A stretch of DNA of 64,000 nucleotides from an uncultured Alistipes sp. (lineage in GTDB: Bacteria > Bacteroidota > Bacteroidia > Bacteroidales > Rikenellaceae): assembly GCA_949288735.1 (NCBI GenBank), contig CASELE010000001.1, positions 1 through 64,000 of the forward strand, in the 5' to 3' direction. A program made the position numbers and the translations under genes. The notes below the pieces were generated by a model, which saw only the letters and a list, made by a program, of their open reading frames with translations, had not been told where the DNA came from and did no database searches. Positions 6,066 through 19,849 of the stretch are shown piece after piece. Each line of letters begins with the position of its first letter. Within the stretch, counting starts at the first letter, position 1.

Positions 6066-6853
6066 TGCGGATGAGACGGATATTCGCCCTGGCCTGTGCG
6101 TTGCTCGTGACCGTGCAGGGGCTGATGGCCTGGGGACAGAAGGGACACGATGTTGTGGCACGGATTGCCGAACGCCACCTGTCGCCCGCCGTGGCGGCAC
6201 GGGTCGCTGCCGTACTTGACGGTAAGTCGCCGGTCTACTGGGCCAACTGGATGGATCAGGCCAGCCATACGCCCGAGTATGCGGGGACACTGACGTGGCA
6301 CTATGTCAACATCCCCGAGGGGGGCGGGACGGCCGATGCAGTACGTCCTCCCGAGGGCGATCTGCTGACGGCCGTCGGCAGAATCGTGGCCGGATTGAAA
6401 GGCGGACGCCTGTCGCCGGACGAGGAGGCCGTCGCACTTCGCATGCTCGTCCATCTGCTCGGCGACATGCACTGTCCGATGCACACCGGAAGACCCGGCG
6501 ATCGAGGCGGCAACGATATTGCGGTCTCCTTCTTCGGCGAACCCACCAATCTTCATGCTGTGTGGGATACGGAGCTTGTCGAGGCGGCGCACCGCTGGAG
6601 CTACACGGAGTGGGCCGAGCAGATCGACCGCGTGACGCCCGCCGAACAGCGCGGCATGGCGGCCGGCACGCCGGAGCAATGGGTGGAGGAGTGCCATCGG
6701 CTGTGCGAGGAGATCTACCGCACGACACCCGCCGGGGATGATCTTTCGTACGACTATGTGGCTGCAGCGGCGCCCCTCATCGAACGGCAGTTGCTGCGCG
6801 GCGGGGTGCGGCTGGCACGCCTGCTCGACGAGATCTACGGCCGGGAGCGGTGA
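6065..6853 (+). CDS. Secreted S1/P1-type zinc nuclease
   Basis: Predicted periplasmic or extracellular phosphodiesterase for single-stranded nucleic acids and 3'-nucleotides. The 262-residue precursor has a signal peptide (about 1-22). The mature protein would begin with the family's conserved Trp (W23) and His (H28) in AWGQKGHDVVARIAERHL. Other expected trinuclear-zinc ligands are visible in LTWHYVNIP, HLLGDMHCPMHTGR and NLHAVWDTEL. The ATG overlaps the rho stop, so expression may be coupled to rho, an unexpected pairing. A second ATG two codons later is also possible. About 170 bases separate its stop from the next strong terminator. Substrate preference is inferred from the family. Confidence 0.9.
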   Translation: MRMRRIFALACALLVTVQGLMAWGQKGHDVVARIAERHLSPAVAARVAAVLDGKSPVYWANWMDQASHTPEYAGTLTWHYVNIPEGGGTADAVRPPEGDLLTAVGRIVAGLKGGRLSPDEEAVALRMLVHLLGDMHCPMHTGRPGDRGGNDIAVSFFGEPTNLHAVWDTELVEAAHRWSYTEWAEQIDRVTPAEQRGMAAGTPEQWVEECHRLCEEIYRTTPAGDDLSYDYVAAAAPLIERQLLRGGVRLARLLDEIYGRER

Positions 6854-6941
6854 GAAGGACCTGAGACCTTTGCCGGTACCTGATTGTAGGGATATGCCAA
6901 CCATCGAAATACACACTACAGGCGATTGTACGGTTCGGCCG

Positions 6942-7051
6942 AATCCACGACCTTTGCATCGTAGACAATGATTCAGAAATAGCCGTTTCGCATTGTTTGT
7001 ATTGTTAATGTTTGTGTGTGAGAAAGCCCTCTCTTCGGAGAGGGCTTTTTT
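6942..7051 (+). other. Possible small RNA or long 3' UTR
   Basis: A non-coding stretch starts near a GACCTTTG sequence (one mismatch to TAnnTTTG, about 6949-6956) and ends at a strong terminator. If that element is used, the product would be an RNA of about 90 nt. It could equally be the 3' UTR of the nuclease gene. I see no convincing reading frame or known RNA family here. Confidence 0.25.
7023..7051 (+). terminator. Strong intrinsic terminator
   Basis: AAGCCCTCTC (7024-7033), a TTCG tetraloop, and GAGAGGGCTT (7038-7047) form a perfect 10-bp stem followed by a T run. It closes the rho/nuclease unit or an RNA transcribed from just upstream. Confidence 0.85.
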
Positions 7052-7114
7052 GTACGTGCTCCGTCGGACCCGGCCCCGTCGCCCGCGCGTCGGCAGCATG
7101 CGCATGCCTCATTC

Positions 7115-7154
7115 CGTTTCGGGCCGGAACGAGGAGGTCTCTTTGCCCGAAACG
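7115..7154. repeat. 10-bp inverted repeat upstream of the porin/imelysin operon
   Basis: CGTTTCGGGC (7115-7124) and GCCCGAAACG (7145-7154) are perfect inverted copies separated by 20 bases. They lie between the terminator and the operon promoter, so they could be a regulator site rather than an RNA terminator; no T run follows. Confidence 0.5.
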
Positions 7155-7182
7155 TGAAAACCGCCGGTTCACGGTATCCCCA

Positions 7183-7225
7183 TTTTTACTGATCCGGAGC
7201 ATGGCCGAGGGGCTTTTTTACTGAT
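7183..7225 (+). repeat. 11-bp direct repeat upstream of the porin/imelysin promoter
   Basis: TTTTTACTGAT occurs at 7183-7193 and again at 7215-7225. The 32-base offset is close to three helical turns. The second copy ends nine bases before the -33 region, a typical position for an activator or repressor pair. The regulator is unknown. Confidence 0.5.
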
Positions 7226-7233
7226 TATTCGGG

Positions 7234-7265
7234 ATTGACCGGACCTTTGACGTACTCTACTTTTG
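7234..7265 (+). promoter_or_regulatory. Promoter of the porin/imelysin operon
   Basis: ATTGACC (from 7234) and TACTTTTG (7258-7265, a match to TAnnTTTG) are spaced like a Bacteroidetes promoter. They lie 27 bases before the porin ATG. Confidence 0.55.
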
Positions 7266-7291
7266 CAGTGTAAATCAAAGGAAAAGCATCC

Positions 7292-8686
7292 ATGAAATTA
7301 CAACTCTTACTACTCTCTGCCCTGGCCGTTCCGTTCGTCGTCGCGGCCCAGGAGCAATTGTCGCCCGGAGAGCTCGAATCGTTGAAGGCTGAAATCAAGG
7401 AGGAGCTGCGGAGTGAACTGCGTTCCGAAATGGAGGAGCAGATACGCGACGGGGTTTCGGCCGAGAACCGCAGAAGAGCCGACCGGCCGTCACGCCTGAC
7501 AATAGGCGGATACGGCGAAGCGGTCATGTCGCGCAACTTCTACAGCGACAACTATCTGCGCTATCTCTATCCCGAGAATTACAAGGACGACCGGAGCCAC
7601 GGCCGGTTCGATCTGCCGCATGTGGTAATCTATCTGGGCTACGACTTCGGTCGCGGCTGGTCGATGGGGACCGAAATAGAGTTCGAGCACGGCGGCACGG
7701 AGAGTGCCTACGAAATAGAGTTCGAGGAGGGAGGCGAGTACGAATCGGAGGTCGAACGTGGCGGCGAAGTGGCACTCGAGCAGTTCTGGATTCAGAAGAG
7801 TTTCATGCCCCAGCTCAATCTGCGTCTGGGCCACATGGTCGTTCCCGTTGGGGCGACCAATGCGCACCATGCGCCCACCGAGTTTTTCGGAACATATCGT
7901 CCCGAGGGGGAGAATACGGTGCTTCCCTGTACGTGGCACGAGACCGGTATCGCTCTGTGGGGCGAGACGGGCGACTGGCGCTACGAGGTGATGTTTCTGC
8001 CGGGTCTGGATTCCGACCGTTTCGGCGACAACGTGTGGATTGCCGGCGGAGCGGGCAGCCCCTACGAGTTCAAGATAGGCAACGCCTATGCGGGTGCCTT
8101 CCGCGTGGACAACCGTTCCGTCGCCGGCCTGCGCCTGAGTCTGAGCGGTTATGCGGGCAACAGTTTCAGCAATACGCTGAGCCGGGTGCGTACCGATGCC
8201 TACGAGAAGGTGAGCGGCACGGTGCTGCTCGGTTCGTTCGACTTCTGCTACGACGATCATGACTGGATTGTCCGCGGAAACTTCGACTACGGACATTTGA
8301 GCGATGCGGGCGAAATTTCGCGTTTCAACCGACGTCTGCCCAATGCCTCGACCTCGCCTCAGCAGTATGTGGGTTCGGATGCCGTCGCCACGGGTCTCGA
8401 GGCCGGATACGACATCTTCTCCCGGATCGATGCCCTGCATAAGCGGAACCAGCGTTTCTATGTTTTCGGCCGTTACGAATTCTACGATTCGATGTTCAAG
8501 ACCGATGCCTCGGTCGTTCCACAGGAGTGGTGCGGCCGGCAGCGTGTGGCCGTGGGTGTGAACTACTACCCCATCCGCAACGTAGTGATAAAGGCCGAGT
8601 ATGCCGTCGGACTGCTCAGGGCGCCGTTCAATAACGAACCCTCCTTCTCGCTCGGTGTCGCCTATTCGGGCATTTTCCGCAGATAA
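7292..8686 (+). CDS. Outer-membrane porin-like beta-barrel protein
   Basis: Predicted outer-membrane channel of 464 residues. An N-terminal signal peptide (about 1-19, ending VVAAQE) is followed by a charged helical stretch at about 24-60 (ELESLKAEIKEELRSEL), as in trimeric OprO/OprP-like porins with a coiled-coil neck. The rest alternates aromatic, Gly-rich segments typical of beta strands, for example TIGGYGEAVMSRNFY and YAVGLLRAPFNNEPSF. It is first in a likely operon with an imelysin, a di-haem lipoprotein and possibly ccsBA, so a role in passage of iron or haem is inferred from context. No motif proves the substrate. The gap to the imelysin ATG is 36 bases. Confidence 0.75.
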   Translation: MKLQLLLLSALAVPFVVAAQEQLSPGELESLKAEIKEELRSELRSEMEEQIRDGVSAENRRRADRPSRLTIGGYGEAVMSRNFYSDNYLRYLYPENYKDDRSHGRFDLPHVVIYLGYDFGRGWSMGTEIEFEHGGTESAYEIEFEEGGEYESEVERGGEVALEQFWIQKSFMPQLNLRLGHMVVPVGATNAHHAPTEFFGTYRPEGENTVLPCTWHETGIALWGETGDWRYEVMFLPGLDSDRFGDNVWIAGGAGSPYEFKIGNAYAGAFRVDNRSVAGLRLSLSGYAGNSFSNTLSRVRTDAYEKVSGTVLLGSFDFCYDDHDWIVRGNFDYGHLSDAGEISRFNRRLPNASTSPQQYVGSDAVATGLEAGYDIFSRIDALHKRNQRFYVFGRYEFYDSMFKTDASVVPQEWCGRQRVAVGVNYYPIRNVVIKAEYAVGLLRAPFNNEPSFSLGVAYSGIFRR

Positions 8687-8722
8687 GGACGAATGATTAC
8701 CATTAACCAAATAAACAGACGT

Positions 8723-9886
8723 ATGAAAGAGAATCTACTCAGAAAAAGCCTTTTTGCCTTTGCCGCCTGCGCGCTGGCGGCCGGTACCGTTGCCTGTGAC
8801 GACGGTGGCAATGAATCCCGTCCCGACGATCCGGCGGGACAAAGCGAGTCGGAGCGCCTGCTCTCGGCCGGAGTGACGGCCTTCGTGGACCGGACGGTGA
8901 TTCCCACCTACAAGTCGCTGGCCGACGCCTCCATCGAACTGCTCGCCACCTGCGAGACGATGCTCGACCGCTTCAATGCGGGACAGCTGACCACGGCCGA
9001 TGTAGAGGCGGCGGACGAGGCGTGGATCGAGGCCCGTCTCTACTGGGAACTGAGCGAGGCGTTCCTCTATGGTGCGGCGGGTGACTACAATATCGACCCG
9101 CATATCGACTCGTGGCCGCTCGACCGGACGGCGCTCCAGGGTATCCTGGACAATGAGAACATGATGGCCGCCATCGAAGCCGATCCCGACTATGCCGGAG
9201 CCAACTTCGGTTACGGACTGCTCGGTTTCCATGCTCTGGAGTACATGATCTTCGAGGAGGGCGGTCCCCGTGCACTGGACAAGTACACGCACGCACAGCT
9301 CGTCTTCCTCGTGTCGGTCGCCACGGACCTGCGCGACCAGTGCATCCGGCTGGAAGCCGCGTGGGCCGGTATGGAGAACGTGACGGACGAAAAGCAGCAG
9401 ATCCTGACCGACGCCGAGCTGGAGCCCTCCTTCGATTACGGCGAGAGCATGCGTCAGGCCGGTACGGGCGGCAGCCTCTATGTAAGCTACGCCGCTGCGG
9501 CCGAGGAGATTATCCAGGGATGCATCGATATCGCCACCGAAGTGGGAGGACAGAAAATCGGCCGGCCCGCCAAGGAGGGCGAGGAGAGCTACGTCGAGTC
9601 TCCCTACAGCCGCAATTCGCAGACCGACTTTGCGGACAATATCCGCAGCATCCGCAATGCCTATCAGGGCCAGGACGGCATAGCCTCGATCAGCGATTAT
9701 GTGAAGAGCGTCGATGCCGGACTCGACACCGAGGTACGGGCGACGATCGAGGAGGCCATCCGTCTGATCGAGGCGGCTCCCGGTCCCTTTGTACTCCGCT
9801 ACGAGGATGCCGCATGGGACGAGGCGGCCGACTATTGCAACGACGTGCTCGTCACGACACTCGAGCGGGTGCAGGAGACCCTCTGA
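8723..9886 (+). CDS. Imelysin (M75-family) lipoprotein
   Basis: Predicted envelope lipoprotein of 387 residues related to imelysins and the M75 domain of EfeO, which take part in iron or haem acquisition; peptidase activity is doubtful for the family. A hydrophobic leader ends at C25 (AAGTVACDDGG). The acidic residues after it resemble a surface-export signal in Bacteroidetes. The diagnostic GxHxxE motif is GFHALE at 168-173. The chosen ATG gives a compact signal peptide, whereas the in-frame start ten codons earlier would lengthen the N-terminus. It lies between the porin and the di-haem protein, a context matching imelysin/DUF1111 pairs in other bacteria. Which metal or haem form it binds cannot be read here. 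Confidence 0.88.
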   Translation: MKENLLRKSLFAFAACALAAGTVACDDGGNESRPDDPAGQSESERLLSAGVTAFVDRTVIPTYKSLADASIELLATCETMLDRFNAGQLTTADVEAADEAWIEARLYWELSEAFLYGAAGDYNIDPHIDSWPLDRTALQGILDNENMMAAIEADPDYAGANFGYGLLGFHALEYMIFEEGGPRALDKYTHAQLVFLVSVATDLRDQCIRLEAAWAGMENVTDEKQQILTDAELEPSFDYGESMRQAGTGGSLYVSYAAAAEEIIQGCIDIATEVGGQKIGRPAKEGEESYVESPYSRNSQTDFADNIRSIRNAYQGQDGIASISDYVKSVDAGLDTEVRATIEEAIRLIEAAPGPFVLRYEDAAWDEAADYCNDVLVTTLERVQETL

Positions 9887-9925
9887 TTATTTGCGGAACA
9901 CACGAACCTGACAGAATGGATTCCC

Positions 9926-11524
9926 ATGAAAAAGACAACAGCTATCATTTTCGGTCTGTCGGCGCTTCTCTGGAGCGCCGCATGCACCGATGATCCGGAG
10001 GGGCCGACCGGCGACGATTCGGTTTCCGGCACGGAACCTGTGCTCGCGGAGGAGTACTATGCGGGCGGTGAGCTGGGTACGGCGTTCAATACCACGTCGG
10101 TGGCCTATGAACAGCCTACGCCCGTGGTCGATGCCGACGCGATGATGACCGAGCGCTTTCTCGACGGCGAAGCGCTCTTCGAACATCCGTATCATACGGG
10201 AACGACCGGTGTCCGTCGCGGGCTCGGGCCGCTCTACATCCGCACCTCGTGCCTGCACTGCCATCCGGGCTACGGCCACGGACAGCGCATCTCCGGTACG
10301 TTCGACACCAACCAGGTGGGCAACGGCTATCTGCTGGTGATCAGTGACGAGGACGACAACTATCTGACGTCGCTCACCGGCATGCCCCAGACGCAGGCCG
10401 TGGAGCCCTTCAAGGCTCCGATCGATGAAAGTCGGATCCGCATCGACTGGCCCGAATATACCGACGAATGGGGCAACCGTTTTCCCGACGGCGAGAGCTA
10501 CAGCCTCATTTATCCCGTGGTGACCATCCCCGAGGAGGCCTATTATGTCCCGTTGATCGGGGTAAAGGGCGAGGTGCCCTACGCGAACGTCCGCGTGCGG
10601 CTTGAGTCGACCATCGGCATCTACGGTACGGGACTGCTCGATGCCATCGACGACGACGATCTGAAAGCCGAGTATGCCCGGCAGGAGGAGGCGGGCGTGG
10701 AGCTGAATCCCGCCATCTTCCGGGGCGGCGACTGGGTGAAGACCTACAACAATACGGGACACCCGCTTCGGTTCACCTATGCGCTGAGCCGCGGCCCGTT
10801 GCAGGATGCCGCCGGAGCCAATGCCATGTGGAACATCACGAACGTGACCCGCTCGGACCGCCGTTATCACTACATGACGACGACCTATGCCGAAGTGGCG
10901 TCGAAGGATCCGGATGTGCAGGCAGACTTCTACCGTCTCTTTCCCGAGTGGAACCGTACGGGCGATGTCGAGCGGGACATCTACGACTATCTGATGAACC
11001 AGGAGCTGCCCGTCGAGATGAGTGACGACGACTACGTCGATTTCATGGTCTGGCACCGTGGCCTGGCCGTTCCTGCGGCCCGTAATCTGGACGATCCGGA
11101 GGTGCAGCGCGGCAAGGAGCTCTTCACCCAGATGGGATGCGTCTCATGCCACCGTCCCACGTGGACCACGGGTGACGACGTATGCACCGATCCGAACGGC
11201 TTCTTCACCGACGGTGACAACCGGCTGCCGCGCTATCCGCACCAGAAGATATGGCCCTACAGCGATCTGGTACAGCACCGGCTGCACATGGTCAACGACA
11301 TCCGTACGGGGTGGTGCCGCACGACACCGCTCTGGGGCCGCGGCCTGAGCCGCAAGTGTACGGGGGCCGACGACCGGCTGCATGACTGCCGGGCCCGTAC
11401 GGTTATAGAGGCGATCATGTGGCACGGCGCACCGGAGAGCGATGCCCGGTGGACGGTGGAGCGGTTCCGCGAACTGAGCAAGCAGGATCGAGACGCGGTG
11501 GTTAAGTTCATCGAGTCGATCTGA
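9926..11524 (+). CDS. Di-haem c-type lipoprotein (DUF1111/DHOR family)
   Basis: Predicted envelope di-haem protein of 532 residues in the family called di-haem oxidoreductase or putative peroxidase. The lipoprotein signal ends at C20 (LLWSAACTDDPEG), with acidic residues suggesting surface export. Two haem-attachment motifs are present: CLHCH at 109-113 and CVSCH at 405-409. The C-terminal segment EAIMWHGAPESDAR matches the conserved end of the family. Covalent haem attachment needs a cytochrome c synthase, and ccsBA lies next. A redox step in iron or haem uptake is inferred from the imelysin neighbour; no activity is proven. A hairpin follows the stop. Confidence 0.88.
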   Translation: MKKTTAIIFGLSALLWSAACTDDPEGPTGDDSVSGTEPVLAEEYYAGGELGTAFNTTSVAYEQPTPVVDADAMMTERFLDGEALFEHPYHTGTTGVRRGLGPLYIRTSCLHCHPGYGHGQRISGTFDTNQVGNGYLLVISDEDDNYLTSLTGMPQTQAVEPFKAPIDESRIRIDWPEYTDEWGNRFPDGESYSLIYPVVTIPEEAYYVPLIGVKGEVPYANVRVRLESTIGIYGTGLLDAIDDDDLKAEYARQEEAGVELNPAIFRGGDWVKTYNNTGHPLRFTYALSRGPLQDAAGANAMWNITNVTRSDRRYHYMTTTYAEVASKDPDVQADFYRLFPEWNRTGDVERDIYDYLMNQELPVEMSDDDYVDFMVWHRGLAVPAARNLDDPEVQRGKELFTQMGCVSCHRPTWTTGDDVCTDPNGFFTDGDNRLPRYPHQKIWPYSDLVQHRLHMVNDIRTGWCRTTPLWGRGLSRKCTGADDRLHDCRARTVIEAIMWHGAPESDARWTVERFRELSKQDRDAVVKFIESI

Positions 11525-11547
11525 CGCTCGCCTTGTCCGGACAGAGG

Positions 11548-11577
11548 CGGGAAGCGGACGTTTCCGTCCGCTTCCCG
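11548..11577 (+). terminator. Hairpin between the di-haem gene and ccsBA
   Basis: CGGGAAGCGGACG (11548-11560), loop TTTC, and CGTCCGCTTCCCG (11565-11577) form a perfect 13-bp stem. No clean T run follows, so it may be a weak terminator, an attenuator or an mRNA-stabilising structure within one operon. Confidence 0.55.
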
Positions 11578-11610
11578 TTGTCGTCCGGATGATGCGCGAA
11601 ATTGCGGAAT

Positions 11611-13812
11611 ATGGAAAAGATATTGAAATACTGTTCGTTCGGCACGCTCGCCCTTATTGTCGTCGTGCTTGCCGCAGCCACCGTATTGGAAAAATTCTAC
11701 GGAACGGCGTGGAGCTCGGCGCATCTCTACGGAACGGCGTGGTTCGCCCTGCTGTGGACCCTGGCGGCTGTCTCCGGAGCCGCATACATCGGACGGCGCG
11801 GACTTGCGAAGCAGCCGGCCGCCTTTCTGCTGCATCTGGCCCTGCTGGTCGTGGTCGCCGGTGCCGGTATTACGCGGGTGTCCGGTCTGCAGGGGACGGT
11901 GCATCTGCGCACGGATAAGGGTGCGGTCTTCGCGTTCACCGACCGCGACGGACGGGAACACCCCTTTCCGTTCGGAGTGGAACTGCTCGATTTCCGTGTC
12001 GAACGCTACCCGGGTACCGATGTGCCGATGGATTTCGAGAGCCGCATCCGCATTACGGAGGGAACGGAGCATCTCGAAGGCGTGGTTTCGATGAACCGCA
12101 TCTTCGTGCGGTCGGGTTACCGGCTCTACCAGTCGGGTTACGATCCCGACAGATGCGGGACGATACTTGCCGTGTCGCATGACCCGTGGGGCATAGGCGT
12201 GACGTATGCGGGTTACGCGCTGCTCGGTATCGCCATGATGCTCTTTGCCGTCGACCGGCGGAGCGGATTCCGTCGGTTGCTGCGTTCTCCGCTCCTGAAG
12301 CGTGCGTCCTTCGTCCTGCTGTTCGCGACTGCCGTCGGTTCGGCTTCGGCCGCTGACGGCGCCGTTCCGCCAGCCTTGCCGCGTGAGACGGCTCGGGAGC
12401 TGGGCGGACTCTATGTCTACTATAACGGCCGTATCTGTCCGTTGGAGACGCTTGCACATGAATTTACCGCCAAGCTTTGCGGACGGAGCCGTTACGGCGG
12501 ACTGACCGCCGAGCAGGTGCTCTCGGGATGGCTCTTCTACTACGATGACTGGAAACACGAGCCGATGATTCGGATCCGTAGCGCCGGGGTGCGCCGTCGT
12601 CTGGGTGCGGAGGGTCGCAGGGTCTGCCTCTCCGATTTCCATAATGTGGCGATGGAGAGCCTCCGTACCGGGAAGATGGACCGTGCGACGGCCGAAGCCG
12701 ATGAGAAGTTCCGCATCGTGGGCATGCTCTGTTCGGGCGGTATGCTGCGTATTTTCCCCTACACCGATCCGACGGACGGGTCGTTGCGCTGGGCTTCGCT
12801 CGTCGACGATCTGCCGCGTGAACTGCCGCACGAACAGCGGGTTTTCATCCGGAGCGCGATGAACTACGTGAACGAACTGGTTGTCCGCCGCGACTTCGAC
12901 CGCGTGGCGGAGGTGCTGCACGGGATACGAGCCTATCAGGAACGCGAGGCCGGGGAGGTGCTTCCCGCGCCGGTGCGCTTCCGTGCCGAGCGGCTCTATC
13001 ATGCCTCGGATTTTTCGAGGGCCGTGGCGATGGCGCTTGTCGCGGCGGGTTTTGCCGTCTGTGCGCTTCAGCTGCGCCGGACGGTCCGCCGTTCCGCCGT
13101 ACGGAGCCGTACGGCGCACCGTTTGTGCATGGGGGTCATCGTTCTCGGATTTGCTTTCCTGACGCTGAGACTCGCCTTGCGCGGATGTGCAAGCGGCCAC
13201 TGGCCCCTGTCGAACGGCTACGAGACGATGCAGTTCCTGGCCTGGTGCGTATTGTCGCTGACGCTCTGTTTCGGCCGCCGCTTCAGACCGTTGTGGTCTT
13301 TCGGAGCCCTTGCGGCGGGATTGGCGCTGCTGGTCTCGACGATGGGCGAATCGAATCCGCAGATTACCCCGTTGATTCCCGTGCTCGATTCGCCGCTGCT
13401 CAGCATCCATGTGGCGTTGGTGATGTTCGCCTACGCCCTGCTTCTGATGCTTCTTTTCAATGCCGCGACGGGACTCCTGCTGTGCCGGCTGCGGCCGGCC
13501 GAAGCGGTGCGGATGCAGCTTGTCGGCCGTCTGCTGCTCTACCCGGCCCTCTTCGCTCTGACGGCGGGTATCTTTGTCGGAGCGGTCTGGGCCAATATCT
13601 CGTGGGGGCGTTACTGGGGCTGGGATCCCAAGGAGGTGTGGGCGCTCGTCACGCTTCTCGTCTATGCGGCTCCGCTGCACGCCGGGTCGTTGCCGTGGTT
13701 CCGCCGCGCGGACCACTTCCATGCCTATTGCGTGGCCGCGTTTTTATCGGTCCTCGTCACCTATTTCGGAGTCAATCTCCTGCTCGGCGGGTTGCACAGC
13801 TATGCCGGGTGA
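11611..13812 (+). CDS. ccsBA: Fused cytochrome c synthase CcsBA (System II)
   Basis: Membrane protein that moves haem across the inner membrane and attaches it to CxxCH motifs of exported cytochromes. The 733 residues combine a ResB/CcsB-like half (first helices about 10-90, then an exported region to about 430) with a CcsA half rich in helices. The haem-handling Trp-rich segment WGRYWGWDPKEVW lies near residue 669. The ATG used starts MEKILKY; a TTG three codons earlier is also in frame. It sits directly after a di-haem protein gene, its probable client. No ResA/CcsX thioredoxin is adjacent. A terminator follows the stop. Confidence 0.9.
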   Translation: MEKILKYCSFGTLALIVVVLAAATVLEKFYGTAWSSAHLYGTAWFALLWTLAAVSGAAYIGRRGLAKQPAAFLLHLALLVVVAGAGITRVSGLQGTVHLRTDKGAVFAFTDRDGREHPFPFGVELLDFRVERYPGTDVPMDFESRIRITEGTEHLEGVVSMNRIFVRSGYRLYQSGYDPDRCGTILAVSHDPWGIGVTYAGYALLGIAMMLFAVDRRSGFRRLLRSPLLKRASFVLLFATAVGSASAADGAVPPALPRETARELGGLYVYYNGRICPLETLAHEFTAKLCGRSRYGGLTAEQVLSGWLFYYDDWKHEPMIRIRSAGVRRRLGAEGRRVCLSDFHNVAMESLRTGKMDRATAEADEKFRIVGMLCSGGMLRIFPYTDPTDGSLRWASLVDDLPRELPHEQRVFIRSAMNYVNELVVRRDFDRVAEVLHGIRAYQEREAGEVLPAPVRFRAERLYHASDFSRAVAMALVAAGFAVCALQLRRTVRRSAVRSRTAHRLCMGVIVLGFAFLTLRLALRGCASGHWPLSNGYETMQFLAWCVLSLTLCFGRRFRPLWSFGALAAGLALLVSTMGESNPQITPLIPVLDSPLLSIHVALVMFAYALLLMLLFNAATGLLLCRLRPAEAVRMQLVGRLLLYPALFALTAGIFVGAVWANISWGRYWGWDPKEVWALVTLLVYAAPLHAGSLPWFRRADHFHAYCVAAFLSVLVTYFGVNLLLGGLHSYAG

Positions 13813-13833
13813 TGGCCGTGCGGCGCTTTTGCC

Positions 13834-13862
13834 GGGAGGCCCTCCGGGACCTCCCTTTTTTG
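13834..13862 (+). terminator. Terminator after ccsBA
   Basis: GGGAGG (13834-13839) pairs with CCTCCC (13850-13855). An inner CCC/GGG pair extends the stem, and a run of T follows. Confidence 0.7.
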
Positions 13863-14038
13863 CCGTCGTGCCGGCCGGGTGTGTAAAAAATCCACGGGGT
13901 TGTAGCGGAAATCTACGGAAAAATCGTTTTCTTTGCGAAATTTCGGAGTGAAACGGTGCTGAAGACAAGCTGTTTGCCTGCCGAAGCATCCCGTGGCCCG
14001 AGCTTTGAAGTATCACCGAAGACCCAAATCGAGTGTAT

Positions 14039-15301
14039 ATGAAACTGGACCGAATGAAGACCCGCTGGAATAGACTCAAACCGGAGAAGAGCCTGGAACG
14101 GTTCGGACAGCTGGCGGCCCGATGTCCGCGCATCACCGTCCGCCTGAACCGGAGACAATGGTTCTTCGCCGCCCTGCTTGCCGCTGCCGCCGTCGTTGCG
14201 GCCTGCCTGCTGCTCCGCCCCCGTCCGGTGGAGATCGAACTGCCGGTGGTCGAGGTACAGCCCGTCATGACCGAGGACGTGAGCATCTACGGCGAATATG
14301 TGGGCCGTATCCGGGCCCAGCAGTTCGTCGAGATACGAGCCCGCGTGGAGGGCTACCTCGAACGGATGCTCTTTGCCGAAGGAACCTACGTGAAGAAGGG
14401 GCAGACTCTCTTCATTATCGACCCGAGGCTCTACCGTGCCCGCGCGAACAAGGCCAGCGCTCAGCTCAACAAGGCCCGCGCCTTGGAAATAAAGACCAAA
14501 CGGGACCTGGAGCGCATACGTCCGCTCTATGAACAGAACGCCGCGAGTCAGCTCGATCTGGACAATGCCGTCGCGGCCTACGAGAGCGCGGCGGCCGACG
14601 TGGCCGTCTGCGAGGCCGACCTCACGCAGGCCGAGATGATTCTGAGCTATACGAGTGTAGAATCACCCATATCGGGCTATATTTCCGAGCGTAATGCCGA
14701 TATCGGAACGCTCGTCGGTCCGGGCGGGCAGTCGCTTCTGGCAACGGTGGTCAAGAGCGATACCGTGCGCGTGGACTTTAGCATGACGGCGCTCGACTAT
14801 CTGCGCAGCCGTGCGCGCAACGTCAATCTGGGACATAAGGATTCCACGCGCAAATGGGATCCCTACATCACCGTGACGCTCGCCGACGATTCGCAGTACC
14901 CCTACCGCGGACTGGTGGATTTCGCCGATCCGCAGGTCGACCCCAAGACCGGTACCTTCTCCGTGCGTGCCGAGATGCCCAATCCCGACCATATACTGCT
15001 GCCCGGACAGTTCACGCGTGTGCGGCTGCTGCTCGACGTGCGCGAGAACGCCATCGTGGTGCCGGCCAAGGCGGTTGAAATCGAGAAGGGAGGCGCCTAT
15101 GTCTATGTGGTGCGGCCGGACAGCGTGGTGGAGCGCCGCTTCGTGGAGATGGGGCCCGAGACGGGCAACAACATCATCGTCGAGCGCGGTCTGGCCCGTT
15201 CGGAGTACATCGTTGTCGAGGGATACCACAAGCTCACGCACGGCATGCGGGTCGAGCCGCTCGTAGCCAGCAGCAACGAAGTGATAACGAAGGAGGAGTA
15301 G
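14039..15301 (+). CDS. RND efflux periplasmic adaptor (membrane fusion protein)
   Basis: Adaptor that bridges an inner-membrane RND pump and an outer-membrane channel. The 420 residues show an unusually long basic N-terminal segment (about 1-42), one hydrophobic helix (FFAALLAAAAVVAACLLL, about 43-60), then the HlyD-like lipoyl half-motif and barrel-sandwich region (VSIYGEYVGRIRAQQFVEIRA). A coiled-coil hairpin covers about 130-200 (ARANKASAQLNKARALE), followed by beta-barrel and membrane-proximal domains. A GTG two codons upstream is an alternative start. The stop lies 4 bases before the pump ATG. The substrate cannot be read from sequence. Confidence 0.92.
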   Translation: MKLDRMKTRWNRLKPEKSLERFGQLAARCPRITVRLNRRQWFFAALLAAAAVVAACLLLRPRPVEIELPVVEVQPVMTEDVSIYGEYVGRIRAQQFVEIRARVEGYLERMLFAEGTYVKKGQTLFIIDPRLYRARANKASAQLNKARALEIKTKRDLERIRPLYEQNAASQLDLDNAVAAYESAAADVAVCEADLTQAEMILSYTSVESPISGYISERNADIGTLVGPGGQSLLATVVKSDTVRVDFSMTALDYLRSRARNVNLGHKDSTRKWDPYITVTLADDSQYPYRGLVDFADPQVDPKTGTFSVRAEMPNPDHILLPGQFTRVRLLLDVRENAIVVPAKAVEIEKGGAYVYVVRPDSVVERRFVEMGPETGNNIIVERGLARSEYIVVEGYHKLTHGMRVEPLVASSNEVITKEE

Positions 15302-15305
15302 AGCC

Positions 15306-18300
15306 ATGAAAAGCGACTTCTTCATCGACCGGCCCGTCTTCTCGACGGTGCTCTCCGTCGTCATCGTCATCGTCGGGGCCATAGGTCTGGCGTTGCTTCC
15401 CGTCGACCAGTATCCGCAGATCGTCCCGCCCGTGGTGCGTATCACGGCCTCCTATCCGGGAGCCGACGCGCAGACCGTGTCGCAGGCCGTGGCCACCCCT
15501 ATCGAGCAGGAACTCAACGGGTCACCCGGCATGCTCTACATGCAGTCGTCGAGTTCCAATTCGGGCGGTTTCTCGGCGACGGTGACCTTCGACATCTCGA
15601 TTGATCCCGACCTGGCGGCCGTGGATATACAGAACCGCATCAAGCAGGCCGAAGCACGTCTGCCGGCCGAGGTGGTGCAGAACGGCATCTCCGTAGAGAA
15701 AGAGGCTTCGAACCGGCTGATGACCATCACGCTGCTCTCGTCGGATCCGAAGTTCGACGAGATTTACCTCTCGAACTACGCGACGCTCAACGTGCTCGAC
15801 ATGTTGCGCCGCGTTCCGGGCGTGGGCCGCGTCTCCAACATCGGCAGCCGTTACTACGCCATGCAGATCAGGGTCCAGCCCGACAAACTCGCCGACCTTG
15901 GCCTCACGGTGAAGGATCTGCAGACGGCGCTCCGCGACCAGAACCGCGAGTCTGCGGCAGGCGTGCTGGGACAGGCTCCCATGGAGGGACTCGACGTGAC
16001 CATCCCCATCACGGCCCAGGGCCGTCTTTCGTCGGCCAGCGAGTTCGGTGACATCGTGGTCCGGGCCAATCCCGACGGATCGATCATCCGCATGAAGGAC
16101 GTGGCCCGCATCACGCTCGAGGCCCAGTCCTACAATACGGAGAGCGGTATCAACGGAGGCAATGCCGCAGTGCTGAACATCAACATGCTGCCCGGTGCCA
16201 ACGCCATGGAGGTGGCCGAGTCGGTGAAGCGGACCATGGAGGAGATCAGCCTCAGCTTTCCCGAAGGAATCACCTATCAGATTCCGTTCGACATGACCAC
16301 CTACATCTCCGAGTCGATACACCATGTCTACCGGTCGCTCTTCGAGGCGCTGCTGCTCGTTATACTGGTGGTGTACCTTTCGCTGCAGAGCTGGCGAGCC
16401 ACGATTATCCCGCTCGTGGCGGTTCCCATCTCGCTGATCGGCACATTCGGCGTGATGCTCGTCTTCGGTTTCTCGCTCAACATGCTGACGTTGCTGGGTC
16501 TGATTCTGGCCATCGGTATCGTGGTGGACGACGCCATCGTGGTGGTCGAGAACGTGGACCGCATCATGAACGAGGAGCATCTCCCGCCCCGCGAGGCGAC
16601 GAAGAAGGCGATGAGCGGTCTGGGCGGCGCGCTGATCGCCATGTCGCTCGTGCTGTGTGCCGTCTTCGTACCGGTGAGCTTCCTGCCCGGTATCACGGGA
16701 CAGCTGTACAGACAGTTTACCATTACGATTGCCGTGTCGGTGATCATCTCCACGGTGGTTGCGCTGACGCTCAGCCCGGTGATGTGCGCCCTCTTTCTGC
16801 GGCCCGATGACGGCTCGAAGAAAAACCGTCTCTTCCGCCGTATCAACATCGCGCTGGCCAAGGGCAACAATCTGTACGGCCGGATGATCCGCGGAGCGCT
16901 CGGCCATTCGCGGCGCATCTTCGCCGCCTTCGGCGTCATTCTGGTCGGCATATGGCTGATGAACCGCCTCGTTCCGCAGAGCTTCATGCCGCAGGAGGAT
17001 CAGGGCTATTTCACCGTGGAGCTGGAACTGCCCGAAGGGGCCACCATCGAACGTACGCGCGAGGTGACCGACCGTGCCATGAAGTTCCTGATGCATGACC
17101 CCGATATCGAGTATGTGCTCAACGTGACGGGTTCGAGCCCCCGTCTGGGAACGAACCAGGCACGCAGTCAGCTGACGGTAATTCTCAAACCCTGGGAGGA
17201 GCGCGCATCGGAGGATATCAACGAAGTGATGCGTCGGGTGAAGCAGGAGCTGAGCCGCTATCCCGAGAGCAAGGTCTACCTTTCGACTCCGGCCGTCATT
17301 CCGGGTCTCGGCACCTCGGGCGGCTTTGAGATGGTGCTCGAGGCGCGCGGAGACATGGGCTATGCCGAACTGCAGCGGGCCGTGGATACGCTGATGTACT
17401 ATGCGGCGCAGCGGCCCGAACTGACGGGACTCGCCTCTTCGATGCAGGGCGAGATACCGCAGCTTTATTTCGATGTGGACCGTGACAAGGCGCAGCTGGT
17501 GGGAGTATCCATGTCGGACATCTTCTCCACGATGCAGGCCTTCACGGGGTCGATCTACGTCAACGACTTCAACATGTTCAACCGCATCTACCGTGTCTAT
17601 ATCCATACCGAAGCCCCCTATCGCGCCCATCGCGAGAATCTCAACCTCTTCTTCGTGCGCGGATCCGACGGGGCCATGATTCCGATCACGGCGCTCGGTA
17701 CGACACACTACACCACGGGCGCCGGGTCGATCAAGCGGTTCAACATGTTCACCTCGGCGACCATTACGGGCGAGGCCTCCCACGGTTACAGTTCGGGTCA
17801 GGCGATGGGTGTGCTCGAGGAGATCGTCCGCGACCATCTGCCCCGGACCGTGGGCGTGGAGTGGAGCGGTTTGTCGTACCAGGAGAAACACGAGAGCGGA
17901 CAGACCGGTCTGGTGCTGGCCCTCGCCTTCCTCTTCGTCTTCCTCTTCCTCGCTGCACAGTACGAGAGCTGGTCGGTCCCCGTAGCGGTGCTCCTCTCGC
18001 TGCCTGTTGCGGGACTCGGGGCCTATCTGGGCATCTGGGTATGCGGGCTGGAGAACAACATCTATTTCCAGATCGGACTGGTGATGCTTGTGGGTCTGGT
18101 AGCAAAGAATGCCATTCTTATCGTCGAGTTCGCCAAGGAGGAGCTCGAGAAGGGCCGCGATATGGTCACGGCGGCGCTGACGGCAGCGCGGCTGCGTTTC
18201 CGTCCCATCGTGATGACCTCGCTGGCCTTCATCCTGGGACTTCTGCCTCTGGTCTTCGCCTCGGGACCGAGCTCGGCGAGCCGTCAGGGCATCAGTACGG

Positions 18301-18416
18301 GCGTCTTCTTCGGCATGCTCGTGGCCATTACCGTAGGTATCGTCTTCGTGCCCTTCTTCTTTGTGTGGATTTACCGTCTCAAGGAGCGGATGCAACAAAT
18401 CAGACTGAAACGATGA
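15306..18416 (+). CDS. RND multidrug efflux pump permease (HAE1/AcrB-like)
   Basis: Proton-driven inner-membrane pump of 1036 residues, a normal length for hydrophobe/amphiphile RND pumps. It begins MKSDFFIDRPVFSTVLSVV with the first membrane helix. The proton-relay helix GIVVDDAIVVVENVDRIM carries the paired Asp residues, and a second helix bundle ends the protein (GLVAKNAILIVEFAKEEL). Two large periplasmic porter/docking loops lie between helices 1-2 and 7-8. Adaptor and outer-membrane factor flank it, so the operon can supply a whole tripartite pump. The stop overlaps the next ATG (ATGA). Substrates are likely lipophilic drugs or bile-type compounds, inferred only from the family. Confidence 0.96.
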   Translation: MKSDFFIDRPVFSTVLSVVIVIVGAIGLALLPVDQYPQIVPPVVRITASYPGADAQTVSQAVATPIEQELNGSPGMLYMQSSSSNSGGFSATVTFDISIDPDLAAVDIQNRIKQAEARLPAEVVQNGISVEKEASNRLMTITLLSSDPKFDEIYLSNYATLNVLDMLRRVPGVGRVSNIGSRYYAMQIRVQPDKLADLGLTVKDLQTALRDQNRESAAGVLGQAPMEGLDVTIPITAQGRLSSASEFGDIVVRANPDGSIIRMKDVARITLEAQSYNTESGINGGNAAVLNINMLPGANAMEVAESVKRTMEEISLSFPEGITYQIPFDMTTYISESIHHVYRSLFEALLLVILVVYLSLQSWRATIIPLVAVPISLIGTFGVMLVFGFSLNMLTLLGLILAIGIVVDDAIVVVENVDRIMNEEHLPPREATKKAMSGLGGALIAMSLVLCAVFVPVSFLPGITGQLYRQFTITIAVSVIISTVVALTLSPVMCALFLRPDDGSKKNRLFRRINIALAKGNNLYGRMIRGALGHSRRIFAAFGVILVGIWLMNRLVPQSFMPQEDQGYFTVELELPEGATIERTREVTDRAMKFLMHDPDIEYVLNVTGSSPRLGTNQARSQLTVILKPWEERASEDINEVMRRVKQELSRYPESKVYLSTPAVIPGLGTSGGFEMVLEARGDMGYAELQRAVDTLMYYAAQRPELTGLASSMQGEIPQLYFDVDRDKAQLVGVSMSDIFSTMQAFTGSIYVNDFNMFNRIYRVYIHTEAPYRAHRENLNLFFVRGSDGAMIPITALGTTHYTTGAGSIKRFNMFTSATITGEASHGYSSGQAMGVLEEIVRDHLPRTVGVEWSGLSYQEKHESGQTGLVLALAFLFVFLFLAAQYESWSVPVAVLLSLPVAGLGAYLGIWVCGLENNIYFQIGLVMLVGLVAKNAILIVEFAKEELEKGRDMVTAALTAARLRFRPIVMTSLAFILGLLPLVFASGPSSASRQGISTGVFFGMLVAITVGIVFVPFFFVWIYRLKERMQQIRLKR

Positions 18417-19849
18417 AACGACTCATATTCCTGCCGCTGCTTCTGCTCGGATTCTGTTCCTGTTCGGCCGTCCGCCACTGTGCGGAGCCCGAACTCGACC
18501 TGCCCGACCGGATTGCCGGCGAAGAGCGCGATTCGCTGACGATCGCCGACATGGAGTGGTGGCGCTTCTATGGCGATACGGTGCTCTGCACCATCATCGA
18601 CCGTACGCTCGCCAACAACAAGGACATGCTGGCCTCCGCCGCGCGCGTGGAGCGCATGAGACAGCTGTACCGGGCCGACAAGGCCGAACGACTGCCCGAA
18701 TTTTCGGCTGGCCTGGCCGGTGAGAACGAGACAAACGACTACTACGACGAGACGCCGCTGCGCGATCCGGAGCATGGTCTGAAGGCAACGCTCAGCTGGG
18801 AGGCCGATCTGTGGGGGCGTCTGCGGTGGGCCAAGCGTCGGGGCGGAGCAGACTACCTCGCTTCTGTCGAGGAGTGGCGTGCGATGCGCATGACGCTCGT
18901 GGCCGAGGCCGCGTCGGCCTACTACCGTCTGATGGCGCTCGACAACGAGCTGGCCATCGTACGGCGTACGCTCACCACGCGTCGCGAGGACGTGCGGCAG
19001 GCGCAGCTCCGTTTCGAAGGGGGGCTGACCTCCGAGACTGTCTATCAGCAGGCGAAGGTGGAATATGCGAATACGGCTTCGCTCATCCCCGAGCTCGAGC
19101 AGCGTATCGAGACCACGGAGAACGCCCTGTCGCTGCTTATGGGCGAATATCCCGACTGGAAGGTCGTGCGCCGGCGGATGAATGTCGAACAGTCGCCGGT
19201 CGATACCCTCTTGCTTTCGGTCGGCATTCCGTCGGAGCTGTTGCAGCGGCGTCCCGACGTGCGGGCGGCCGAGCAGAGGCTTCGATCGGCGATGGCTTCG
19301 GTAGGCGTGGCTTACGCCGACCGCTTCCCCCGCCTGACGTTCCAGTTAACGGGCGGATGGGAGAACAACGAGATTACGGGCTTCTTCCGGTCGCCCTTCT
19401 CCTACATATTGGGTGATCTGACGGCTCCGCTCTTCGGATTCGGTCGTCGGAAGGCCCGTTACAAGGCCGAACTCGCGGCCTACGACGAGGCCCGTTATGC
19501 CTACGAAAAGAAAGTGCTCGAGGTGATGAACGAAGCCAACGACGCCGTCGTGGCCTATCACAGCGTCTGCCGCACGGCTACGCTGATGGTCAATTTGCGG
19601 GATGCGGCACGCAAATATGTCGATCTGGCCAACCTGCAGTATCGGGGCGGCAGCATCAACTATATCGACGTGCTCGACGCGCAGCGCCGTTATTTCGATG
19701 CGCAGATCAGCCTGAGCAACGCCGTGCGCGACGAATACCTCGCTCTGGTCGAACTCTACAAGGCTTTGGGCGGTGGCTGGAGCCTGCCCGGCGATAAGGC
19801 CCCCGTGCCCGGAACGGAAGAGAGGGTGCACACGCCGCGTCGTCGCTGA
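18413..19849 (+). CDS. RND outer-membrane factor lipoprotein (OprM/NodT-like)
   Basis: TolC-type outer-membrane channel of 478 residues that completes the efflux pump. The signal peptide ends at a lipobox (LLLLGFCSCSAVRHC), so the mature protein is probably lipid-anchored as in OprM. Two repeated outer-membrane efflux domains are visible, with long helical segments such as VYQQAKVEYANTASLIPELE and the repeat GGSINYIDVLDAQRRYFDAQ. The conserved PSELLQRRPDVRAAEQRL lies between them. The ATG overlaps the pump stop by four bases, implying coupled translation. A strong hairpin ends the operon. Confidence 0.95.
   Translation: MKRLIFLPLLLLGFCSCSAVRHCAEPELDLPDRIAGEERDSLTIADMEWWRFYGDTVLCTIIDRTLANNKDMLASAARVERMRQLYRADKAERLPEFSAGLAGENETNDYYDETPLRDPEHGLKATLSWEADLWGRLRWAKRRGGADYLASVEEWRAMRMTLVAEAASAYYRLMALDNELAIVRRTLTTRREDVRQAQLRFEGGLTSETVYQQAKVEYANTASLIPELEQRIETTENALSLLMGEYPDWKVVRRRMNVEQSPVDTLLLSVGIPSELLQRRPDVRAAEQRLRSAMASVGVAYADRFPRLTFQLTGGWENNEITGFFRSPFSYILGDLTAPLFGFGRRKARYKAELAAYDEARYAYEKKVLEVMNEANDAVVAYHSVCRTATLMVNLRDAARKYVDLANLQYRGGSINYIDVLDAQRRYFDAQISLSNAVRDEYLALVELYKALGGGWSLPGDKAPVPGTEERVHTPRRR

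Follow-up and report, generated by a model that had tools for sequence, protein, structure and literature searches.

A putative four-gene iron module in an uncultured Alistipes, with a glutamate-ladder porin and an apparently dedicated cytochrome c synthase

Why would a bacterium that probably cannot make haem carry a complete cytochrome c synthase beside the one exported CxxCH protein found in its genome, and what might a porin and an imelysin contribute next to them? The question is raised by a locus in the first 64,000 nucleotides of contig CASELE010000001.1 (assembly GCA_949288735.1, an uncultured Alistipes sp. of the Rikenellaceae); this whole stretch is called the window below. A preliminary description, made from the letters alone, had proposed an envelope iron/haem module of four genes in a fixed order on one strand. 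Profile searches and motifs recovered all four on the + strand in that order, a porin-like barrel, an imelysin, a di-haem protein of the DHOR/DUF1111 family and a fused CcsBA, separated by gaps of 36, 39 and 86 bases once start codons were corrected:

7292..8686, + strand: outer-membrane porin, predicted 16-strand OprP-like barrel with an N-terminal helix
7673..7780, + strand: glutamate ladder, porin residues 128-163, ten Glu invariant in 70 sequences
8723..9886, + strand, ATG start: imelysin (M75), predicted lipoprotein (PF09375, 7.4e-47)
9224..9241, + strand: GxHxxE motif of the imelysin, GFHALE
9926..11524, + strand: DHOR/DUF1111 di-haem protein, predicted lipoprotein, two CxxCH (PF06537, 1e-36)
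10250..10264, + strand: first haem c motif, CLHCH, DHOR residue 109
11138..11152, + strand: second haem c motif, CVSCH, DHOR residue 405
11611..13812, + strand, ATG start: fused CcsBA, system II cytochrome c synthase (PF05140, 6.9e-16; PF01578, 4.5e-30)

The listed frame of ccsBA opens earlier, at TTG 11602. When the four proteins were compared with NCBIfam, the porin, imelysin and DHOR gave no match, and CcsBA matched CcsB below the cut-off.

Gene order and the glutamate ladder

To follow the gene order, an alignment scan of titled genome records with DHOR was made, which confirmed at least 587 relatives; the best 80 were kept and, being picked by DHOR similarity, favour close relatives. Profile searches found all four genes on the same strand and in the expected order in 60 of these 80 loci, and two more (L124 and L190), missed through a frame extended too far upstream, proved intact, so that the order is kept in 62. 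The contig breaks off on one side of the locus in ten of the remaining 18, among them L125, which also has no CcsBA in the 5 kb downstream. Four others encode CcsBA up to about 5 kb away on the opposite strand and another encodes it 5 kb downstream, while the last three, L118, L163 and L178, showed none over the 4.5, 1.6 and 10 kb of sequence that could be inspected. The proposal of a conserved four-gene module is thus upheld, and the lack of a conserved order that would have spoken against it was not seen.

We also examined an independent draw of 295 Bacteroidales genomes, 41 of which contain PF06537 (40 over the cut-off), with loci fetched from 38 of the 40 other genomes (G190 and G239 were left out). 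Here, too, the neighborhood suggested by the preliminary description was recovered, porin and imelysin preceding DHOR in 34 of the 38 loci. As for the exceptions, L080 begins inside the porin and has no imelysin before DHOR, the contig of L109 is too short for the porin, L110 (genome G106) has a match below the family cut-off, and L073 has neither gene within 7 kb, the ladder porin of its genome, G221, lying some 50 kb away from DHOR. CcsBA is the next gene after DHOR in 21 loci, and 5 others have it at a greater distance downstream, up to 7 kb. The remaining 12 do not show it in order within the fetched stretch, and a tblastn recheck of ten of them found none. In a long version of the locus (L073-L081 and L104), DHOR is followed by a second porin (PF07396), a mono-haem lipoprotein (PF07635, one CxxCH) and a RidA-like protein (PF01042), families that were tested on L076; these extra genes precede CcsBA where CcsBA is present.

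Alignment of 70 porin sequences revealed 36 invariant columns, 12 of which are Glu, and 10 of those fall in the ladder. Porin residues 124-166 include 14 acidic and 1 basic residue, and residues 63-464 include 53 acidic and 38 basic. The structure model gives a 16-strand OprP-like fold, with the loop 131-160 predicted at a pLDDT of only 53-58. OprP and OprO, which are phosphate porins, carry an arginine ladder, whereas the conserved run here is made up of Glu rather than the basic residues of an anion pore. By sequence, no solved relative of the porin was found, and Porin_O_P (PF07396) did not match it at E 1, whereas 16 of the 70 relatives match (E up to 1), the best at 4e-7. A full-length ladder porin is encoded in 38 of 41 DHOR-positive genomes and in 0 of 254 DHOR-negative ones (Fisher test, 9e-45; this and the other Fisher values for the draw are uncorrected for relatedness), and two weak porin matches, in G022 and G138, span the ladder columns. 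An apparent natural porin-imelysin fusion on a metagenome contig (P0014) was set aside as a probable assembly error, the end of one gene being joined to the middle of the other. We found no description of the ladder porin in the open-access literature.

The imelysin scored 160.7 bits against a curated PF09375 cut-off of 23.5, has solved relatives in 3n8u and 4ecg, and keeps 13 of 13 published site residues of the Bacteroides ovatus protein, mapped by spacing and alignment. Published work describes imelysin regulation as iron-dependent, treats imelysin with a DUF1111- or EfeB-type peroxidase as an iron-linked pair and argues against imelysin being a peptidase (PMC3143127). Tests of iron regulation and binding on imelysin relatives disagree among publications (PMC3143127, PMC9174327), and the preference given for EfeM is copper, iron and zinc (PMC9174327).

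DHOR scored 126.9 bits against a PF06537 cut-off of 22. Its model has a weak predicted likeness to the fold of cytochrome c peroxidase (CCP) and MauG, with 40 of 48 structural matches belonging to the di-haem peroxidase/MauG group; Foldseek with the model gave no useful lead, and by sequence the only solved relatives were cytochrome c555-type motif matches. A tandem pair of DHOR genes stands between imelysin and CcsBA in L149, L151 (Porphyromonas uenonis) and L087.

Both the imelysin and DHOR had been described as lipoproteins, a prediction in keeping with the lipoprotein-type signals LAAGTVAC and LLWSAAC (read by eye). A simple lipobox rule, some calls of which are visibly wrong, found a site in 64 of 75 imelysins and 68 of 80 DHORs, and at least two acidic residues occur at positions +2 to +6 after the lipidated Cys in 39 of the 64 and 37 of the 68, counts that stand without a control set of periplasmic lipoproteins. 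In the window, the predicted mature N-termini are C-DDGGN for the imelysin and C-TDDPE for DHOR. A surface-export signal put forward for B. fragilis, SDDDD, is similar to this acidic stretch (PMC5080379), so surface display of both proteins is possible.

CcsBA and its single apparent client

CcsBA comprises ResB and CcsA domains, with a WWD motif (WGRYWGWD) and four conserved His, as in system II synthases; its alignment with the solved CcsA 25vk spans its length, and the roles of the His residues were assigned from alignment and PMC10663686. To determine which cytochromes this enzyme could serve, we took a census, limited to CxxCH motifs, of the whole genome (1.66 Mb in 44 contigs, 99.57% complete). 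It contains 44 possible CxxCH codings, compared with 82 for a reversed control pattern. Two belong to DHOR; three lie in the best-scoring coding frame of other proteins, namely a rubrerythrin, an iron-hydrogenase-like protein and a Fur-family protein, in none of which a hydrophobicity rule recognised an export signal; and 39 lie in outscored frames, the score being a simple measure of codon usage with nine window genes as its training set. A hydrophobic stretch follows a possible start in three of these 39 (frames L009, L019 and L022). Six doubtful frames gave no Pfam match at E 0.1, a set that does not include L009, whose frame stops inside the motif. Altogether, reading of the 42 stretches outside DHOR found no other exported CxxCH protein. 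The genome encodes one CcsA, and a search found no NrfA. The dedicated haem-attachment enzyme of the preliminary description thus appears to be borne out.

The draw of Bacteroidales genomes extends this picture. CcsA is encoded in 41 of 41 DHOR genomes compared to 199 of 254 others (Fisher test, 1.5e-4), while strong NrfA matches occur in 6 of 41 DHOR genomes compared to 116 of 254 without DHOR (1.3e-4). Where DHOR and NrfA occur together, 5 of 6 genomes encode at least two CcsA, compared to 4 of 35 with DHOR alone (9e-4). Of the 15 NrfA loci fetched, 8 have a split ResB/CcsA pair next to NrfA, and these cover four of the six genomes that encode DHOR as well; G020 and G105 have no such pair beside NrfA. 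Both synthase pairs are visible in G182, G211 and G258, in G211 on one stretch. There (L195, 55-8287), DHOR with a fused CcsBA is convergent with NrfHA and a split ResB/CcsA, giving one stretch two synthases and a client for each. Among 62 CcsA domains placed in a tree, the seven from the NrfA side form one group (100/100), separate from the 55 others, which include four opposite-strand CcsBA near DHOR; the bootstrap is not fully settled. Profile searches of the same-family genomes sampled, G113 and G213, found neither DHOR nor CcsA, NrfA or ladder porin. The co-occurrence of CcsA with DHOR and the separate NrfA-side group speak against CcsBA standing beside DHOR by positional accident. Weighing against an exclusive link across the order at large, CcsA is encoded in 87 of 138 genomes that have neither DHOR nor NrfA.

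Taken together, these results point to a synthase lineage maintained largely for a single cytochrome. In Wolinella there are likewise several CcsA-type enzymes (NrfI, CcsA1 and CcsA2), each tied to certain cytochromes, but NrfI and CcsA1 serve the unusual motifs CxxCK and CX15CH (PMC12285233), whereas those of DHOR are ordinary CxxCH. The open-access literature yielded no description of a private synthase. Since ccsBA appears to have one client, its deletion would cleanly remove the di-haem enzyme, and the genomes with DHOR and NrfA, holding two synthase lineages, offer a setting for studying client choice.

A proposed iron route and its alternatives

No ferrochelatase (PF00762) was found in the genome by a search that matched in 8 of 14 control genomes, while cytochrome bd subunit I, FeoB and a DsbD-type protein are encoded. 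The lack of a ferrochelatase match together with cytochrome bd subunit I suggests that haem is used but scavenged, and haem auxotrophy is probable; a search for HmuY was uninformative, matching in no control genome. The preliminary description had noted that no ResA/CcsX thioredoxin lies nearby and had allowed that the system might work differently. Indeed, no ResA/CcsX-like gene was noticed among the open reading frames beside the module, where no profile search was made for it, but one DsbD_TM match and five AhpC-TSA-fold matches elsewhere in the genome are candidates for reductants supplied in trans, so a different mechanism need not be assumed. The suggestion that the module reads iron gained no support. 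Iron as its cargo is inferred from published work on relatives together with the acidic porin.

Our preferred reading, for which the case stands about evenly balanced, is a four-gene iron module of ladder porin, imelysin, di-haem DHOR and a CcsBA serving that one cytochrome. The porin would conduct iron, most likely ferrous, across the outer membrane, and the imelysin lipoprotein would bind it. DHOR, predicted to be CCP/MauG-like, would then act on the bound iron or on the imelysin itself, probably using H2O2 to oxidise either Fe2+ or a side chain of the imelysin. CcsBA, with DHOR as the only predicted recipient of its haem, might draw reductant in trans from DsbD/TlpA-type proteins and use scavenged haem as the cofactor, and the iron could be passed on to FeoB, encoded elsewhere in the genome. 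A bolder version, offered tentatively and open to considerable doubt, is a TonB-independent iron gate, in which a charge mirror of OprP takes in Fe2+ by its glutamate ladder, the imelysin and di-haem enzyme, perhaps surface-displayed, load or oxidise it, and a cell without haem synthesis of its own maintains a complete synthase, supplied with haem by scavenging, for a single enzyme.

The iron-module reading competes with others. The locus might be a peroxide-defence unit, in which DHOR is a CCP-like scavenger of H2O2 in an anaerobe, the imelysin holds loose iron and so limits Fenton chemistry, and iron nutrition is secondary. The 40 top-ranking structural hits of the DHOR model are mostly di-haem peroxidases, and a Leptospira imelysin operon with a cytochrome-c-domain protein is H2O2-induced (PMC7567364); the same imelysins, however, respond to iron limitation too. 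Peroxide defence also leaves unexplained the ladder porin that accompanies DHOR, and we consider it rather unlikely. MbnH modifies MbnP, and DHOR might likewise modify the imelysin into a copper site, with the porin admitting copper instead of iron. MauG and MbnH/MbnP presumably share with our locus a weak di-haem fold likeness and an adjoining gene for the partner protein, but no sequence link from DHOR to MauG or MbnH was found. With published imelysin regulation being by iron (PMC3143127), a copper function seems improbable.

The remaining two alternatives are less probable still. CcsBA could be a general synthase that merely adjoins DHOR and matures other cytochromes, which fits the presence of CcsA in most DHOR-negative genomes, the hairpin and longer gap between DHOR and ccsBA (described below) and the 12 draw loci where CcsBA is not in order. 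Yet the census of this genome turned up no further exported CxxCH protein, DHOR and CcsA are both missing from the same-family genomes sampled, G113 and G213, and the NrfA-side CcsA group separately in the tree, making a general role very improbable. Least probable of all is a porin-cytochrome conduit for electron transfer through the outer membrane. In its favour, a porin is encoded together with a c-type cytochrome lipoprotein, and another porin and a mono-haem lipoprotein join them in the long version; DHOR, however, has two haem motifs rather than a multihaem chain in a wide barrel, the modelled barrel is a 16-strand OprP-like porin, and the acidic ladder would have no role.

The imelysin-DUF1111 pair and its iron link are already known, and what is new is the ladder porin with it and a synthase lineage largely for one cytochrome. 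In operons such as PA4370-4373 of Pseudomonas aeruginosa (Xu et al. 2011, PMC3143127), an M75 gene likewise adjoins a DUF1111-type di-haem gene with a link to iron; that operon has two imelysin-like genes, whereas the locus here has one imelysin, mostly its own CcsBA and, in full-length cases, always the ladder porin. EfeUOB/M systems also pair an M75 domain with a haem peroxidase, but the EfeB structure is single-haem (PMC9174327) and DUF1111 here has two haem c motifs; a gene for the EfeU permease was not noticed in the module, no profile search being made for it. The role of imelysins and DUF1111 proteins was posed as a question in the 2011 structural paper (PMC3143127) and in the 2022 EfeM paper (PMC9174327), and the locus offers a minimal version in which a single imelysin and a single di-haem enzyme have new partners in one porin and one synthase. 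If the iron-module reading is true, the glutamate-ladder porin would be a channel opposite in charge to OprP and possibly a TonB-free iron route in common gut bacteria.

Transcription signals and flanking genes

Two candidate control elements were noted in and before the module:

7234..7265, + strand: promoter candidate of Bacteroidota type, ATTG-20 bases-TACTTTTG, upstream of the porin (one mismatch to the consensus)
11546..11579, + strand: hairpin core in the DHOR-ccsBA gap, 15-pair stem and 4-base loop

The exact Bacteroidota promoter pattern has no match within the module, and scans for sigma-70 promoters and terminators were at chance level. Elsewhere on the + strand of 6801-14100, TAnnTTTG occurs once, inside ccsBA at 13569, so none of the three intergenic gaps contains it. 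A separate ccsBA promoter, with other cytochromes as clients, had been named beforehand as evidence that would count against the module; by this consensus, the DHOR-ccsBA gap has no Bacteroidota -7 motif.

The whole gap (11525-11610) folds at -54.6 kcal/mol (z -6.79). Among 60 related loci, with gaps of 20-400 bases considered, stems of at least 9 pairs occur in 17 of 38 DHOR-ccsBA gaps compared to 2 of 49 and 4 of 38 for the other two gaps; DHOR-ccsBA gaps are also the longer ones, and among gaps of at least 50 bases the counts are 16 of 30 compared to 2 of 18 and 4 of 17. By inference, the hairpin may reduce ccsBA expression relative to the upstream genes. An inverted repeat, TGTAGAGACG/CGTCTCTACA, recurs in the DHOR-ccsBA gaps of several relatives.

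The module is flanked by an S1/P1 nuclease gene upstream, adjoining it in the window but in none of the 38 draw loci, and by an RND efflux adaptor gene downstream, seen in 4 of 38 draw loci (L088, L097, L100 and L101). On the same strand, 14033-19849 holds this adaptor followed by genes for a pump and an outer-membrane factor, as judged from the appearance of their open reading frames.

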